Of a stretch of DNA of 26,676 bases, positions 1 through 26,676 are shown in pieces. The notes below the pieces were generated by a model. The model worked only from the letters and a program-made list of their open reading frames with translations. It made no database searches and was not told where the DNA came from. Both the position numbers and the translations under genes were made by a program. The stretch spans positions 1 through 26,676 of IMG/VR virus record IMGVR_UViG_3300021197_001295; one strand, 5' to 3'. This stretch comes from a virus. Numbering within the stretch: position 1 is the first letter of the stretch; each line of letters starts with the position of its first letter.

Positions 1-3000
1 TAAAGAAGCTATATCAATTTTACCTTGCTTAATTAACTCTACTATAGCTATGTGTATTTCTTTGGCTGTAACTTGATATTTTGTTTTATCGTTAAAAGGT
101 ACAACCCAAGGATATTCGTATAGTTTTATATCTTCTCCCTTTGACTCTTCTTTCTTTTTAGTTTGAGAAGTAGACTGTTTGTCACCTTTTTCTTCACTAA
201 CCTTTATAGAGAAAAACCCAGGTATTTGTCTAGCTGCTGCAGGTATTCTTAATGGTATCAAACCAAACAAATGCGTAGTTAATTTTGCTTTTGTTGGGTT
301 CCAAGTGTTTACCATAAAAGGAACTCCATTTTCATTTTCAACACCAATAGTAATATTGTTTATTAAATCGTTTCTTAACGTATAATCTTTTTGCCCTTGA
401 TCGTTTGTTCTAATACCCGCATCGTCAGTAAGTTTTAACTTTATATGCTTTAAAGTGTACAGCTGCCACTCTAAACCTACTTGATAACCTATTATAAGTT
501 TATCTTCTTTTTCCAGTGTATTCCAAAAGTCGGCTTGTTCTTCTACAGGCAAAGAGCTAAAACCACTTAAACCATGTATAGACTCTACGGCCTCGTCTAA
601 AGCTCTGTTTGAGTTAGCAAAAAGCTCATCTTTATTTTGATCTACTTTTGTTGGTAAAGACTTAGAAAATTTAAACACGTCAAATATTTCATTACCATAC
701 TTAGCAAAAGCTTTTTCAGGATCTTTTTTAAGCTCGTTTTTCATACGAGTATTTTTAGCTTTCCTTGCTTTTATTAGGTTTTTAACATCTTTTATGTGTT
801 TTGATAAATTACCAGTTAGCTTAATTTGCTTACCGTCCATTGTCGCAACTTCTTTCAACTGTTTAGTAACAACGCCTTTTTGAAACTGATAGTTAAAGTT
901 TTTAAGAAAAGTTATAACGTCTTGACCATTACCAAATTTAATATTCATGCCCATGTGGGCAAAAACTCTAGAAATCATGTCTCCTACTTTTCTTGCAAAA
1001 GATTGTTCTAAAGTTATATCGCCAGTTCTTAAAGCGTCTAAAAACAACGTTAATTTTTCCTCAGCTTGCATTTCAGTTGGAGCTTGTAAATATAAAGCAA
1101 GTCTTTCTTGTATTTCAGAAGCTACCATCTTACCGCCTAACCTATCTAGCTCTACGCTTAAAGCGTTAGCAATTGCCTCTGCTATTTCAGGATTTTCGTC
1201 TAAAGATTTTGCTAAAACTTTGTGAAGCATTTCATGAGCAACAGCGTTTATAGCGCCTGTTTTACTTGCTACCGTAGTGTTTATAAATACATTACCACTA
1301 CTAACACCTACAAAACCATCGGCACCAACGTGAGACTCTACACCGTTTTTTATTTCAACTAAGCTTGACTTTTCAATTTGCTTTCCTTTGTATATTACAG
1401 AAAAAGAACCATCTTGTTCTTGAGTAACAACAACGTCGTTCATATCGTAGCCTAACTCTTCCATAACTTCAAGATGAGCTACTTCTCTTACAGCATCTAA
1501 ACTTTCTAATTCTTTAATAACAACCTTGCCTTTACCGTATATTTTATCAGCCATACGTTGAGCTTTCTTTACGTCTTGTTTTATTATATCGGCAGCAACG
1601 TCTTTTATTATTTCCCCTTTCTCACCTCTTAGCTCTGTTATTTTGTTTTTAGTTTCTTTTATTTGTTTAACATTTATTTCAGGCTCGTAACCTAATATTC
1701 TCAAAGTATCAGACAAACTGTCTATTTGTTTGTTTAAGTCTAATACTTTATTTCTATCTCCTTCGGTAAGTTTGTTTAATATTTCTATTTCTCTTTTTGT
1801 AGCTCTTTCAGCAACTTGTTTGTCAAAATCAGCTCTGTCAAAATTTGCAATATTACCAGATTCTTTTAAAGCTCTTTCAGCCTGCATAAAGTTTATAAAG
1901 CTACCAGTAACTTTTACTTTTTTATCACCTAAAGTATTGTTTTTAATTTCTTTGTCTAGCGCTGCTTTAAAATCAGTATAGTTGTCATAATCTACAAAGC
2001 CTATTCTCATTATTTCAGCTCTTCTACCGGTGTATAAATTATGACCCATGCTTATACCTCCAAAAGCTACTTGAGCAATACCAGTGGTTGCTAGTAAATC
2101 TCCAACAAACTGAGTGTTCATTCCAGTCATTACTTTTTCACCCATTATAAGGTTTGATAAAGGTAAGTTTACTAATTCTTCAAATGTTTCGCCAAGCACA
2201 CCATCCCATGATGCATTTTTTTGAAACTTACGGTATAAACTACTACCACCAGTTAAACCTTTTTTGTTTAAATAATAACCTAAAGAGTATCTTTTAAACC
2301 ACTCTGGATTTGCAAACATCCTTTTACTCATGTATTTCCCAAACATAGGTATTGACTGACCTAGTCTTTCTGTTGCAAACTCAGCCCAAGTTATTAAGTA
2401 TGCTTTTCTAAAAGCTTTAATAAAAGGATCACCGGTGTTAGGAACAAACCTTGCTCCAAAACTAACATCTCCAAATTCAGTGTCGTCATTCTCAATTCTA
2501 TCTAGCAAGTTAATTAACTCATCACCATCTGAGGTGTGCATGAACCTCATCTCATCAGTCATGTTGTCGATCAAATGCTTTATGTATTGCTGTGGGTTTG
2601 CCGTTGTCTGAGCTAGTGTACCCGCTAAAAATGATGTAAAATTAACACCTCTACTAACCCTTCTTTTAACAGCACCTAAACCTCCTTTTTTTACACTAGC
2701 ATACTTTGCTTTTTTCAACAAGCCTTTGTTTAATCTTTTTGTTAAATCTCTTTTGACTAAAGCTCTTGTCGCGGTAAAAGTACCAGCTGTCATTATAAAC
2801 TCACCAACATAAGGAACCATATCAGCAAGCATGCCACCAACTCTATGACCCATAGATATATCTTTGACAGCGTTTTCATGCTGGTTCATAATAGCAAACA
2901 TATCCAATTGTACTTGCTCGGCAGCTGAAAGTTTTTCTCCTTTTAATTGTTTTTGGTTAAGGGCATATATGTCTGCTGTTTCTACAATTTGTGCCATAAA

Positions 3001-5886: not shown

Positions 5887-7224
5887 TTACTGTACTTGTT
5901 CGTTAGCTCCTAAAGCATTTTGAAATACTCTTCTCGTGACAGCTGGGTCTGTATCTTTTCTTATTGATTGAAACTCAACCCAGTCTCCGTTGCTCCATTT
6001 TTTAATTACGTAAACCTCAACACCATCGTCTTCATCGGTTGTCATTTCTATTTTAGTTGTTGCATTACCTAGCATTAGCATGTCATTTGGAGTTGGATTT
6101 TCTATTGCTAAAAAATTATCAATATTTTTGACAGCATTTGATGTTGCTTTTTCATTTTGAGTCATTTGCCCGTAAGTTTCAGCATTTTTACTGTGATGAT
6201 TTTCCGCGGCGGTTAACAGTTTATTTCTAGTCCATTTTTTCAACTCTGACTCGTATTCTTTGTAATTAGCACCGTTAGATTTTAAATACTTATTAGGATC
6301 TAAATCTTTGTGCTTAGGATCTTCAGCCCACACTTCTGCTAAAGTTTTTCCGTCTTGTAAAAAAACGTCGTCAAACAAAGATGTTTGAAGTTGGTCCGTT
6401 GTTTCTGTTGCTGCATTAATTATTTTTTGAGTTTTGTCTTTTGATGCTGCAAAGTCTACTCCTTTTTGCGATTGTTTTGCTAACTCATCTAGTTGATCGC
6501 TGTAGTTTGACCCTTGCGCGTCGTCTTTAACTCTTATGTGTTTGTCAAGGTCTTTTAGTAATATACCTTCTTCTTGCCAGTCTTTAGCAAAACCCTTGCC
6601 TTTAGCTTGTTCAAGTTCTTTTTTTAAAGCTTCTTTTTCGCCCTCACCTTCCGCTGCTGCAATAGCAGTTTCTATTCTTTTTATCTCTGCTTCTTGTTCT
6701 ATCGGATCGTTAAATTTTCCTGTTAAAAATTGATCTGTATCTTTGTTGAAGTTAACAACAACTTGCCCAGCTTTGTTTCTACCTATAGTATATTGCTTTG
6801 TCATAAGCATATCCAACATGTCTTGATCAGCACTTTTTGAATAGTTACCAGCAAGCTTATTCTCAGCATGCTCTTTTAACAAATTACCTAGTTGGTTTTG
6901 AACACCTATTAATTCAGCGCCTTCCGTCTCAAGTTTTCTAACAAGTTTTTTATTACCGTTCGCTCTAGCTGTAGCAATTTCCGTGCCTAAACGATCAAAC
7001 TCACCAGTTATCCACTCTTGACTTTCTCCAGACATAAGATCAACACCGACAGCATCAGCGTTTAAATCTTCAGCAGTTGACATTGCGTCTTCATTTAACT
7101 TTACTTTGAAGTCATTATAACCTTTCATTACGTTACCAAACTGTTTTGCTATCTCACCACCAACGTCAAAATTTTGTTGGTCAACGTACATTTGGTTTGC
7201 TGTTAATAAATTTTTATTAGCCAT
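5887..7224 (-). CDS. Helical internal virion protein (putative ejection protein)
   Basis: This 445-residue protein (starts MANKNLLTANQMYVDQQNF) is not recognised from an enzyme family. It is predominantly hydrophilic and helix-forming, with Glu/Lys/Gln-rich stretches around residues 75-120 and 170-215. It has no obvious signal peptide or membrane segment. The ATG at 7224 is 11 bases after the stop of the 240-residue gene, and its TAA lies 12 bases before the giant cargo gene in the same frame, so the three genes are probably co-transcribed. By position it would be the middle member of an ejection-protein trio, as in T7 (gp14, gp15, gp16) or P22 (gp7, gp16, gp20). That role is inferred from order, length and composition only. 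A tail-associated structural protein is the main alternative. Confidence 0.8.
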   Translation of the reverse strand: MANKNLLTANQMYVDQQNFDVGGEIAKQFGNVMKGYNDFKVKLNEDAMSTAEDLNADAVGVDLMSGESQEWITGEFDRLGTEIATARANGNKKLVRKLETEGAELIGVQNQLGNLLKEHAENKLAGNYSKSADQDMLDMLMTKQYTIGRNKAGQVVVNFNKDTDQFLTGKFNDPIEQEAEIKRIETAIAAAEGEGEKEALKKELEQAKGKGFAKDWQEEGILLKDLDKHIRVKDDAQGSNYSDQLDELAKQSQKGVDFAASKDKTQKIINAATETTDQLQTSLFDDVFLQDGKTLAEVWAEDPKHKDLDPNKYLKSNGANYKEYESELKKWTRNKLLTAAENHHSKNAETYGQMTQNEKATSNAVKNIDNFLAIENPTPNDMLMLGNATTKIEMTTDEDDGVEVYVIKKWSNGDWVEFQSIRKDTDPAVTRRVFQNALGANEQVQ

Positions 7225-7235
7225 GTTTTTTTATT

Positions 7236-7958
7236 TTATGAGTTCCAAGAGTAACCAGGTCCACCTTCGGGATTGCCTTTAAGAAAATTATCTAAATTAC
7301 CAGCGCCAACCGCTGTACCGGCGTAACCTGTTAAAGCGCTACCAACTCCACCAATTAAAGATTTTGTTGCTGCGTTTTTAGCTTGTTGAGCAGCTGCAGC
7401 TCTTTGCATTGACATACCATATAGCGTTTCTGTTCTATCCTGCTCTAATTTTTGAGTTTCTCTTTCTCCTCTAGCAAACAAAAATTGATTTTTTGCCTCT
7501 TGTCCTGCTTCAAGTTGGTTCATTTTCATTTGAGCCATTGAAGCCGCTTTTTGATTAGCAGACTCTTGCATACCTATACTAGCAGAGGCTTCTTGTCCTT
7601 TTTTAACCTTTTGATTGTATACTGTTTGCGCTAAACCAGCCGCTCCAGAAGCTCCAGCGGAACCTCTTAACGCGTCTAAAACATTAACGTCTCTTTGTGC
7701 TTGCTGTTCTGCTTTAAACTCTGCTTGTTTTAAGTTAACAGTTAAGTCTTCCATAGGATTTTCCATACTTGAATAAGGATTTGATAAATTTTGATAAGGA
7801 TTACTAAAATCTAAATTCATGTATTGCTGCTTCATTTGTCTTCGCTCAGCGTTAGCGGCTTTAAGCTCTTTTCTTCGTTTTTTACGACCGAACAAGCTGC
7901 CTAAAACAGATACACCTGTGCTTATTAAAAATTTTGCCGTTACCGGATCTATTGCCAT
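7236..7958 (-). CDS. Small Ala/Gln-rich internal virion protein with hydrophobic ends
   Basis: This 240-residue protein begins with a hydrophobic helix (about residues 8-24, TAKFLISTGVSVLGSLFG), followed at once by a basic cluster KKRRK. The middle (about 30-195) is rich in Gln, Ala, Met and Glu and looks like a long amphipathic or coiled-coil helix. The end (about 200-225) is a Gly/Ala-rich hydrophobic stretch, GGVGSALTGYAGTAVGAG. This design, membrane-active ends around a Gln/Ala-rich helix, is the usual look of podovirus ejection proteins of the T7 gp14 or P22 gp7 kind, which insert into the host envelope during DNA entry. The gene sits between a small structural gene (37-base gap) and the 445-residue gene (11-base gap). 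The function is inferred from composition and position. Confidence 0.8.
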   Translation of the reverse strand: MAIDPVTAKFLISTGVSVLGSLFGRKKRRKELKAANAERRQMKQQYMNLDFSNPYQNLSNPYSSMENPMEDLTVNLKQAEFKAEQQAQRDVNVLDALRGSAGASGAAGLAQTVYNQKVKKGQEASASIGMQESANQKAASMAQMKMNQLEAGQEAKNQFLFARGERETQKLEQDRTETLYGMSMQRAAAAQQAKNAATKSLIGGVGSALTGYAGTAVGAGNLDNFLKGNPEGGPGYSWNS

Positions 7959-22670: not shown

Positions 22671-25091
22671 TTATCTAGGATCAAAAGACTCTAAATCAAA
22701 ACCTCCCCCTATAGTATCATTACCTGCAGACTCAAAGTTTTTAGGTGCTTTTGCATTATTTCTTTGATCTATAAGTTCACTTTGTTGAGTAGCTTGTATT
22801 CTTGTTCTTTCGTCTTTACGATCTTCTTTCTGTGCTTCTTTATCGTTTGCGTTTTGAGTATCGGCTTGCCTTAGCTGCATGTTATAATCAAACTCAATTT
22901 GCATTAATTGTTTTTTTATCTCTGCTTCTTGCATCATTTTATCTGCATCTAACTTAGCCTTTAAACTTTCTAACTCTGCTTGAGCAGCGGTTTTAGCTTG
23001 TTCTTTTTGCATTTCAGCTTGAGCAGCTGCTTGCGCCGCCTGTTGATTTGTTTGAGACTGCATTTGCATATTTCTCTCTTGCATTTGTTGATCTTTTTCT
23101 GCTTTCTTTTTTCTACGTATTTTTAACAACTGGTTAGCAAGTTTTATATTTTTTATTTCTCTAAGATCAATAGCATCCTCAAGTTCTATGTTTTGCTGTT
23201 GTAATGCCATTTGAATATTATTTTCAAGCATAGCTTTTTCTTCTTCATCTGGCATTACCTCTAAAAATATACCAAAGTCATACAAGTGTAGTTCTTTAAT
23301 GTCTTCAAGTGTGCCAACGTTGTGAGCGCCAATTTGCTGTATAAAAGCTTCTCTTGTTGGTGAGTACTCTAGTATATCAGATATTCTTAATGACAAACCT
23401 TCTGCAACATCTTGTGTTAAAAACAAACCAGCTTGTAATATGTGCCTTGTGGCAGTATTTGAATTAGCAGCAGCTAATTTCTGTACTCCAACTAAAGCGT
23501 TTTTATCAGGTGTTGCTGCGTCTCTAGCTTCATTTAACCCGGTAACATCTCTTATCATTTGTAAATAGTAGTTGTATGTACCTATTAAACTTTGCATTTT
23601 AGCACCACCATTACCTGATTGTATTTCTTGTATTGGCACTTTACCTGGGTTCATATCACCATCAGAGGTAAAACTTCTACCAATAATCGAACCTGTTTGG
23701 AAAAACATGTTTAAAGCTTCTTGCGGGTTGTAGTTTGTACCGTTACCTAAATCTATTTCAGCTAAACCATCCGCGTCTAAGTATATTCCATCTGGAACCA
23801 TTCTAGACATCACCTGTTGTAGTTTTAGATGTGTAAGCTGTATCATATCAGCAAAACCAGTAATACGTTGTACTAAAGACTCTATACGACCCCTATACAT
23901 CCTTGGAGCTACAATACTATAATTCATTTTAACCTTAGTGTAATCACTTTTAGGTCTTATCATGTTTTCAGCTAGCTCCCATTTTAAAATTTTGTCAGTG
24001 CCTAGTATAACGGCGCCGTCATAAAGTACCTCTAATTTTTTAGCAAGTTTTTCAAAACTACCATCAAGATTTTTTGGTGGATTAAAGTTATCATCTTTTT
24101 TTATTGCTTTATCAGCTCCACTACCAGTTTGTTTTATTTTATAAACCTCGTTCATATAAGTTTTATAATTAAAATACAAAACTTGTATTTTATTATTATC
24201 ATCTACAGATGAGGCGTGACCGGTATTATAGTTGTTTTTATTATGTGACTTGTTTTTTGCTATATCATCTAACTCTGAAGTTGTTAAATCAGGAAATTGT
24301 TTAACAAGCTCATTTATAGGTATCATTTTAACTTCACCAACGTAATATATATCATCAAAATATGGTGATTCAGTATAAGAGTAAACTAAATCAACAGGGT
24401 CAACATAGTCAACAACAACACCTTCAGATGTATTAAAACAAGTTTTAACAGCTCCTATACCAAGCACTGTTAAATCATAATAAAATCTTTTTTTAGTTAA
24501 CTCGTACTTATTACCATCTAGCATTACATTTAACGCTTGTTCTTCGGCTAATTCAACAGACTGCTTGTATGTCAACTGCATGTGTAAGTCCAGTTCTTCT
24601 TGAGTTTCTGGCAGCTCGTCCATTTCACTTTTAAACAAATCAATACCTGTCTGTTGTAAAACACCTGTTTTATAAGCTTTAGCGTTCATATCTTCTAAAA
24701 TACCCTCCATGTACTGTGTTCTTTTGTAAACACCGTATGGATCTTGAGAATAAGCTTTTATATCAAATGTTCTTTCGGCTATACCGTTAACAACTATATC
24801 AACAAACTTAGGTATAATAGGCACTGGTTTCCAGTCTAAATTAAGATAAGACAAGTCACCGTTTATAGATAATTCATCTTTATATTTTTGTATTGACTGC
24901 TCTCCTCTAGCATACAGTCTTAGCTTGTGGAAATTATTATGATTAGTTCTATACTTGTTAGAACCCCTATCAACATGAAACCACTCATGCTCAATAGCCT
25001 TTGCTACTTTCAAACCGTACTCAACGGTTTTCTTTTCACTATCACTAACTACTTGAGAAGGAAAATAACTTGTTATAACAGACTCTGCCAT
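22671..25091 (-). CDS. Portal protein
   Basis: This 806-residue protein begins MAESVITSYFPSQVVSDSEK and would form the ring at one capsid vertex through which DNA is packaged and ejected. The region around residues 190-270 contains FYYDLTVLGIGAVKTCF and YVDPVDLVYSYTESPYF, the beta-rich pattern of large podovirus portals. About residues 404-550 hold the long helix and clip-like core, with ITGFADMIQLTHLKLQQVM and IRDVTGLNEARDAATPDKNA. About residues 655-790 are a Gln/Ala/Lys/Glu-rich coiled coil, which could build a barrel inside the head or contact the scaffold. The length is at the upper end for portals but usual for large podoviruses and crAss-like phages. The gene starts two bases after the terminase stop, so translation is probably coupled. 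Confidence 0.92.
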   Translation of the reverse strand: MAESVITSYFPSQVVSDSEKKTVEYGLKVAKAIEHEWFHVDRGSNKYRTNHNNFHKLRLYARGEQSIQKYKDELSINGDLSYLNLDWKPVPIIPKFVDIVVNGIAERTFDIKAYSQDPYGVYKRTQYMEGILEDMNAKAYKTGVLQQTGIDLFKSEMDELPETQEELDLHMQLTYKQSVELAEEQALNVMLDGNKYELTKKRFYYDLTVLGIGAVKTCFNTSEGVVVDYVDPVDLVYSYTESPYFDDIYYVGEVKMIPINELVKQFPDLTTSELDDIAKNKSHNKNNYNTGHASSVDDNNKIQVLYFNYKTYMNEVYKIKQTGSGADKAIKKDDNFNPPKNLDGSFEKLAKKLEVLYDGAVILGTDKILKWELAENMIRPKSDYTKVKMNYSIVAPRMYRGRIESLVQRITGFADMIQLTHLKLQQVMSRMVPDGIYLDADGLAEIDLGNGTNYNPQEALNMFFQTGSIIGRSFTSDGDMNPGKVPIQEIQSGNGGAKMQSLIGTYNYYLQMIRDVTGLNEARDAATPDKNALVGVQKLAAANSNTATRHILQAGLFLTQDVAEGLSLRISDILEYSPTREAFIQQIGAHNVGTLEDIKELHLYDFGIFLEVMPDEEEKAMLENNIQMALQQQNIELEDAIDLREIKNIKLANQLLKIRRKKKAEKDQQMQERNMQMQSQTNQQAAQAAAQAEMQKEQAKTAAQAELESLKAKLDADKMMQEAEIKKQLMQIEFDYNMQLRQADTQNANDKEAQKEDRKDERTRIQATQQSELIDQRNNAKAPKNFESAGNDTIGGGFDLESFDPR

Positions 25092-25093
25092 AT

Positions 25094-26676
25094 TTATTCT
25101 TTAATTAATTTTGATGTACTACCTGTGTTTTTATACCTAGCAATACTTATGTTTAGTTTAGGTTTTTGTGTTGGTGCATTTGGTCTGTAAAGGTGTCTAT
25201 TGCAAGCCATTATAGCTAAACCAGAGCTAATAGCAGCGTCATATTTTGTTCTTTTATTTATATCAAACTTTGCCCAATCATTAAGAAGATCGTTAAAGTA
25301 CATATCACCATAGCTACCATCTTGTTTTAAACCAACATGATCTTGTATATACATTTCAATTGCAGCTGCGTGAGCTTGTTTTATATCTTCGCTTGAGTTA
25401 GGTATACCACCTATTTCTTTTTCAGCTGTAGATAATTTATTCCATATTTTATCAGGTCTATTCATGCTAAAACCCCTATAACCACGCCTTCGTAAATAAT
25501 ACAATAGACGAGGTTTGTTATTCTCTGCAAGTATAGGCATCCCGTAAAATACTAATGCCATTAAAACGTCTTCAAAGAATATCTCTGCGGTTTGTGGTCT
25601 TGCTAAGTATTCTAAAAATATCATGTTAGAAGGAACTTCTTCCATGCTAAACTTTGTTAGCCCGTGTAAAGCGCCTTTAGAACCCACGCCATCAACTGTT
25701 CCTGATATATCGTAACTATCACAACCAAACGCTCCCATATGTTCGTTACCTGGGTATTTAACACCGTTTTTAATTACAACTTTGTTTTGTAAATGCTGAG
25801 GTGGTGTCCAACTTACTTTAAACCTACCTTTTGGATCTGGATAAAATATTACTTTAGAATCTTTTACACCGTTAACCCATTGAAAATTACCTTTAGTAAT
25901 ACCTAGTGTTCTAGACATTTCTTCGTTGTAATCTATTTGCTCGTATAGTTTAACCAAGTTAAATATACTATTTTTTGTTTCATCTCTAAACGCATGCTCA
26001 GTAGTTCTTGGAAACTGCCTATAAAATTCATTTAAAGCGTCTTGATCGTTTTTTAAACCGTCAGCCTCGTTTTGCCAACTGTCTATAACACCTATGTCTA
26101 TTAATTCCCCATGTGGATCGAAGACTTCATGATCCGGAGTATTGAAGACTGGGCTTCCGTGCTCGTCAATAAATCCTTCGTAGTTCCACTCCATTGGGAT
26201 AAAAAGAGAATATAAGCCAGACGCTGTCTGTCCATTTCTGTTTCGCTTAGTAACGTCTGATGCTCCATATAGTTTTTTAAAGTTTTCTCCACCCTTGTCT
26301 AATGCGTTAGATGTTGAGCCCATCATACATTTACCTATAATTCTACTACCTAATCGTAAACATGTTTTTGTAACTCTCCAGTTGTTTAATATATTATCGG
26401 GTCTTTCCCACTTGCCACTTTCATCGTGTACTAAAAGCTTTAATTTTTCACCGTCATAGCTATTGTCACCTGTATTTTTCCAGTCTATAGTTGTATCTAA
26501 TCCTTCTAAATCTTCTAGCTTTTCGTTTGTTGTAATCTTCTTTCTAGTAAACTTAGAAGCTGGAACTCTATATGCAAGCTCGGATTTTGGCCTATCCATA
26601 CCGTCTTGAATAGGACTAAAAAAGAAAGGATAATTAATCGATATAGGTACAACTTTGTCAGTAAACATTTTCTTAG
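25094..26676 (-). CDS. terL: Terminase large subunit, 5' end cut by window
   Basis: The frame stays open to the right edge with no stop upstream of the first Met at 26668, and the ATPase Walker A region is missing. The true start therefore lies outside and the Met at 26668 is internal. LLVHDESGKW (about 78-87 counted from that Met) gives the Walker B hydrophobic run plus catalytic Asp-Glu. CMMGSTSNALDKGGENF matches the coupling motif after it. The C-terminal half looks like the RNase H-fold nuclease that cuts the DNA concatemer, with acidic candidates in FGCDSYDISG, ILAENNKPRLL and KYDAAISSGLAIMA. This enzyme powers DNA packaging through the portal, whose gene follows two bases after its TAA. 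The small terminase subunit is not in the window. Confidence 0.92.
   Translation of the reverse strand, partial: KKMFTDKVVPISINYPFFFSPIQDGMDRPKSELAYRVPASKFTRKKITTNEKLEDLEGLDTTIDWKNTGDNSYDGEKLKLLVHDESGKWERPDNILNNWRVTKTCLRLGSRIIGKCMMGSTSNALDKGGENFKKLYGASDVTKRNRNGQTASGLYSLFIPMEWNYEGFIDEHGSPVFNTPDHEVFDPHGELIDIGVIDSWQNEADGLKNDQDALNEFYRQFPRTTEHAFRDETKNSIFNLVKLYEQIDYNEEMSRTLGITKGNFQWVNGVKDSKVIFYPDPKGRFKVSWTPPQHLQNKVVIKNGVKYPGNEHMGAFGCDSYDISGTVDGVGSKGALHGLTKFSMEEVPSNMIFLEYLARPQTAEIFFEDVLMALVFYGMPILAENNKPRLLYYLRRRGYRGFSMNRPDKIWNKLSTAEKEIGGIPNSSEDIKQAHAAAIEMYIQDHVGLKQDGSYGDMYFNDLLNDWAKFDINKRTKYDAAISSGLAIMACNRHLYRPNAPTQKPKLNISIARYKNTGSTSKLIKE

Follow-up and report, generated by a model that had tools for sequence, protein, structure and literature searches.

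Gene order of the window and its giant protein

The window, by which we mean the whole stretch of DNA analyzed here, is a virus record of 26,676 bases with its main genes all encoded on the minus strand. First come terminase and portal, followed by an acidic protein of 393 aa, a probable major capsid protein, proteins that match PHROG head-and-packaging families, and a tail protein of 2220 aa; after these stand proteins of 546, 139, 240, and 445 aa and then a giant protein. The capsid and scaffold-like proteins are named provisionally, from gene position. No separate prohead protease was recognized in the window, either by reading of the genes or among their PHROG and Pfam matches. The features used to describe the locus are as follows.

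22671..26668, minus strand: portal and terminase large subunit, with tblastn matches to ctfjg026, Elemovirus, and Cellulophaga phages; these served for phage placement
10069..16731, minus strand: 2220-aa tail protein; its C-terminal domain is of the crassvirus muzzle type (Pfam crAss_MUZ_C at 36 bits, against a cut-off of 27)
7236..7958, minus strand: 240-aa small protein, a conserved neighbor with matches in 69 loci; weakly T7 gp14-like
5887..7224, minus strand: 445-aa protein, the middle one of the three whose genes close the virion block; it resembles, by eye, a 545-aa protein at the equivalent position in locus L188
1..5874, minus strand: giant polyvalent protein, 1958 aa visible; the reading frame runs off the contig, and the C-terminus lies beyond the contig end
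2047..2241, minus strand: LPD14-like segment (large polyvalent protein-associated domain 14), residues 1212-1276 of the giant (Pfam E = 5e-5, 23.7 bits, under the curated cut-off of 27)

By tblastn, the terminase and portal of the window are akin to those of podoviruses of Flavobacterium (Elemovirus), Cellulophaga, and Tenacibaculum, and also to those of the metagenomic phage ctfjg026. The 445-aa protein gave no tblastn match against the earlier relative loci. Kinship of the 240-aa protein with T7 gp14 was considered and set aside, as it consisted of a single sub-threshold Pfam T7_gp14 match (E = 0.013) that was repeated by none of 23 homologues.

Homologues of the giant in the equivalent gene slot measure 1700 to 3860 aa. 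The window's giant reads as a polyvalent protein, being a large multidomain protein among virion genes with polyvalent-associated domains (LPD14 matches below cut-off); an LPD14-like segment also precedes the peptidase in the giant of locus L142, again below cut-off. Compared with most marine relatives, the window's giant has several hundred to ~1000 extra residues before the peptidase, including a long polar, acidic stretch, and its HExxH begins at residue 1547 versus mostly ~480 to 1150.

The HExxH site and the predicted peptidase domain

The earlier note on this DNA had reported an HEMLH at residues 1547 to 1551 of the giant. Its presence was confirmed, encoded at 1236 to 1222 on the minus strand, and it is the sole HExxH within 1958 aa, where 0.02 would be expected by composition. 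The site and the features around it are listed below.

871..1527, minus strand: zincin-like peptidase domain, residues ~1450-1668, as delimited by alignments A1-A3, AlphaFold models, and Peptidase_M78 matches of family members
1276..1290, minus strand: VFINT, an edge-strand motif (I1531, N1532) before the HExxH helix; I in 69/81 and N in 78/81 domains, and a strand in the AlphaFold model
1222..1236, minus strand: HEMLH, residues 1547-1551, with predicted zinc ligands H1547 and H1551 and predicted general base E1548
1057..1059, minus strand: E1606, predicted third zinc ligand in the following helix (model 261-278); identical in 81/81 and 34/34 domains

Single-sequence searches with the giant or its domain returned no relatives and no solved structure, and relatives were first reached via the portal protein. 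As a single-protein query the 240-aa neighbor was unsuccessful; its profile succeeded. A search of cellular genomes gave three matches, all in metagenome-assembled bins, and these are perhaps phage contigs.

Among giants of more than 700 aa reached via the profile of the 240-aa neighbor, HExxH was present in 55 of 58, against 0.65 expected by composition, in a survey that covers the best 80 loci, shares some contigs with the portal-derived set, and uses a profile derived mainly from loci that an HExxH-bearing pattern had first picked out. The three giants lacking the motif are cut off at 814 to 862 aa, before the site, and in a few of those surveyed (e.g., L197) the HExxH lies far from its usual place. 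Control reading frames of more than 600 aa just upstream carried HExxH in 2 of 106 cases versus 1.5 expected. In the portal-derived set, where the giant slot was read in 12 contigs and G023 and G033 were left out with the giant cut off early, nine of 10 giants carried HExxH and one HExxxH. The giant of L091 has HEVLGH, an HExxxH form, between flanking profile matches, like the HEXXXH variant of polyvalent zincins.

Exactly four columns (H1547, E1548, H1551, and E1606) are invariant among 34 homologous domains, a neighbor-derived set that includes the window and phage elemoF and was chosen with a profile whose training domains bear HExxH. The four columns are preceded by a conserved IxIN strand (I1531, N1532). 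E1606 is also identical throughout the 81 domains recruited via the HExxH pattern, a recruitment into which identity at this position was not built. The third ligand would be best placed at E1606, 59 residues past H1547. From the EMQAEE stretch (1601 to 1606) previously suggested for this role, the last residue stood up to comparison, whereas position 1605 is frequently occupied by D or some other residue and E1601 shows no conservation. Poor conservation of HExxH among homologues, which had been named beforehand as grounds for abandoning the peptidase reading, was not what we found, given the four invariant residues. Apart from the absence of a peptidase family match for the window, nothing favors a chance match; this reading is refuted by the conservation survey, with its excess over composition and the invariant third Glu, and its probability is negligible.

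Peptidase_M78 (Pfam PF06114) matched 22 of 62 family members at E values up to 0.1. The best match, in L119 (1.6e-7, 31.6 bits against a cut-off of 22), spans the HExxH and Glu region and needs a long insert, with 142 residues aligned on 92 profile positions. SprT-like and other putative zincin families gave weak matches among family members, below M78; the PHROG metallo-protease was matched by four members, and none of the named Pfam models of polyvalent-protein peptidases was among the matches. A search against metallopeptidase and polyvalent-protein profiles, proposed in the earlier note, was positive for family members (M78 and PHROG metallo-protease) but not for the window's own domain, which alone matched no peptidase family and reached no cut-off. 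Weak Pfam matches of the window domain to HepII_C, ubiquitin, and DUF3123 were taken as chance, as was a PHROG McrBC-inhibitor match at 1469-1502 (E = 0.008). By profile comparison, most of the more divergent HExxH stretches in giants can be aligned with the family, and reversed controls score near zero. Those of L197, L200, L255, and ct1, and weakly those of L203, L223, and L225, fail to align and may be either replaced modules or merely divergent ones.

AlphaFold prediction for residues 1340 to 1736, with 65 sequences as input, gave a mean pLDDT of 79.5, with values of ~75 to 95 across most of the zincin-like element order. The predicted elements run as a strand, a helix, strands, the HExxH helix (model 205 to 220), and the E1606 helix (model 261 to 278), so that the invariant Glu would sit in a helix; this order fits the core that Iyer et al. 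give for polyvalent zincins (PMC5512222). A domain-only model was of modest confidence (pLDDT 69), and the first model was dominated by a long helix. PDB fold searches with both AlphaFold models returned no metallopeptidase or convincing match, only unrelated, mostly helical look-alikes. The sole outcome of a PDB profile search with a 10-sequence profile was a match to aureolysin, below threshold and across the HExxH stretch; a 62-sequence profile gave nothing. Structure prediction thus yielded a zincin-like element order but no PDB match, and a zincin fold of the window domain is consistent with the models but not confirmed. The zinc-peptidase reading as a whole is well supported by four invariant residues with gluzincin spacing and by the M78 and PHROG metallo-protease matches of family members, and we infer zinc binding and peptidase activity for the module.

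The module within a putative virion protein

A profile built from 60 marine giants matched the window (3e-43), elemoF gp18 (7e-24), phi38:1 gp101 (1e-19), phi19:3 gp129 (4e-11), and phi13:2 gp127 (5e-9), and no reversed-sequence decoys. The HExxH falls at profile position 602. The three Cellulophaga proteins match only ahead of the peptidase, their matches stopping at 529 to 553, and the giants of phi38:1, phi13:2, and phi19:3 are without HExxH or HExxxH. Because the Cellulophaga matches end before the site and these giants lack the motif, the peptidase is, by alignment, a module behind an N-terminal part common to relatives. In the arrangement we propose, a polyvalent internal virion protein would carry a gluzincin-type module (HExxH, with E1606 as third ligand) between this N-terminal part, which is helical, and a variable C-terminal part. 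In the phi13:2 giant, a weakly GNAT-like segment is found where the peptidase stands in marine giants.

Other segments were seen in the giants of relatives. Downstream of the peptidase, residues 2091-2234 of the L142 giant contain a Zeta-toxin/AAA_33 kinase domain over the Pfam cut-off, and the giants of L100 and L131 have a HAD-phosphatase-like motif, FDDTLA, that is sub-threshold in Pfam. Six giants (L102, L103, L110, L134, L136, and L138) have a second HExxH (HEKKH or HEKQH) near the C-terminus, followed at some distance by a conserved WE..A...AE, and this may be another small module resembling a zinc peptidase; that of L102, the only one tested, had no Pfam match. A DUF3293 domain (residues 1323-1392) lies before the peptidase in elemoF gp18 (L083, 18719-29803), and the giant of ctfjg026 (L082, 741-12320) has two HEFGH motifs, at 1615 and 2500, only the second being weakly alignable with the peptidase family. 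The downstream modules of relatives together with the peptidase amount to the make-up of polyvalent proteins (PMC5512222).

In their annotations phi38:1 gp101 and elemoF gp18 are both structural proteins, the former by similarity; gp101 is not named in the main text of a 2026 proteomics paper on phi38:1. Because its N-terminal part is homologous to these two proteins, the window's giant is supported as a candidate virion protein. The small-middle-giant order of the 240-aa protein, the 445-aa protein, and the giant is the order of the 16.5-kDa protein, the 66-kDa protein, and the virion RNA polymerase in phage N4 (gp52-gp51-gp50). We take the neighboring gp51 and gp52 to be the two proteins that are ejected along with gp50. 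Given this gene order and the structural annotation of the homologues, the giant would most likely be packaged and then ejected together with the DNA, being the largest member of a set of three proteins, like N4 gp50. Of the earlier suggestion of an ejected virion protein, the virion part now draws on homology, and ejection on analogy with N4. N4 expels gp50 into its host along with two other ejection proteins, and gp50 contains an HExxH domain, C1 (PMC12633501). Overall, we conclude that a zinc-peptidase module in a virion-borne, ejected polyvalent protein is the probable identity of this feature.

Possible actions of the module and comparison with known systems

Iyer et al. considered three possibilities: that such proteins process themselves before packaging (P1 DdrB), that they do so after entry, or that they attack proteins of the host (PMC5512222). 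For the window's giant, the most likely action would be to cut its own chain, either inside the particle or following entry, which would separate its modules. We advance self-cleavage as the main action only tentatively, at somewhat less than an even chance. It is slightly favored, with cutting of host proteins close behind, because of the near-universal presence of the module in a multidomain chain; host targets are kept open because of fast divergence and the M78 link. Against obligatory self-cleavage, N4 gp50 and its plasmid counterparts are delivered uncut (PMC5512222). The Cellulophaga relatives, which do without the module, count against the favored explanation. The likelihoods given here for self-processing, host cutting, virion maturation, and no cutting are judgments and were not computed.

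That the module is instead an early effector which, once injected, targets proteins of the host, for example a repressor or defense protein, is possible if doubtful. Cellular members of M78 (ImmA/IrrE), the family to which the module is linked, cut repressors. The module sequence diverges strongly between related phages, several HExxH types occupy one slot, giants of relatives include a kinase of Zeta-toxin type or a segment weakly similar to GNAT, and such action is allowed by Iyer et al. (PMC5512222). The near-universal presence of the module, however, exceeds what would be expected of an optional effector aimed at variable hosts. We consider it rather unlikely that a large marine Bacteroidota phage group injects, in nearly every member, a fast-diversifying zinc peptidase that cuts a host protein early, with zincin types swapping in the slot.

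Encoded in the virion block of a window in which no separate prohead protease was recognized, the module might mature other virion proteins (scaffold, portal, or tail) during assembly. Phage maturation proteases are usually separate proteins, though, and the Cellulophaga relatives have a homologous portal and giant N-terminus but no module; we regard this role as distinctly improbable. A fold kept for structure or packaging, with a structural zinc and no cutting, would accord with N4, in which encapsidation requires the region that contains the HExxH domain and the protein is left uncut (PMC5512222). Yet every member retains the general-base Glu of HExxH, which would not be needed at a merely structural zinc site; this leaves the option very improbable.

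The peptidase module is a new, uncatalogued branch of a known theme, that of peptidase modules in injected phage proteins, which were predicted in 2017 (PMC5512222). It is nearly universal in a large marine Bacteroidota phage group and absent from cultured Cellulophaga relatives. The cultured Flavobacterium phage elemoF (genome ~60 kb) carries it, and self-cutting versus host-cutting is therefore directly testable.

Among known systems, the polyvalent zincins comprise 12 published clades (PMC5512222). Their zincin-like MPTase is like the window's domain in having HExxH in one helix and Glu in the following helix, and an HExxxH variant is found in one window relative; polyvalent proteins likewise are giant multidomain phage proteins beside virion genes, here with an LPD14-like segment upstream (PMC5512222). 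Unlike them, the window family belongs to marine Bacteroidota phages with a crassvirus-type muzzle protein. Peptidase_M78 (ImmA/IrrE) is matched over the curated cut-off by at least one family member across the HExxH and Glu region, but not by the window's own domain.

N4 gp50 is similarly a giant and the last of three genes after tail genes, with ejection known for gp50 and predicted for the window's giant, and its C1 is a single HExxH domain with a similar stretch just ahead. In contrast to gp50, no RNA polymerase part or family was recognized in the visible 1958 aa of the window's giant, whose C-terminus lies beyond the contig, and profile comparison of C1 with the window's HExxH domain was not significant (hhalign 9% probability). 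Cellulophaga phage phi38:1 gp101 is a homologous giant in the equivalent slot but without HExxH or HExxxH, whereas Flavobacterium phage elemoF gp18 is a homologous giant in the equivalent slot with the same zincin (hhalign 96.5%).
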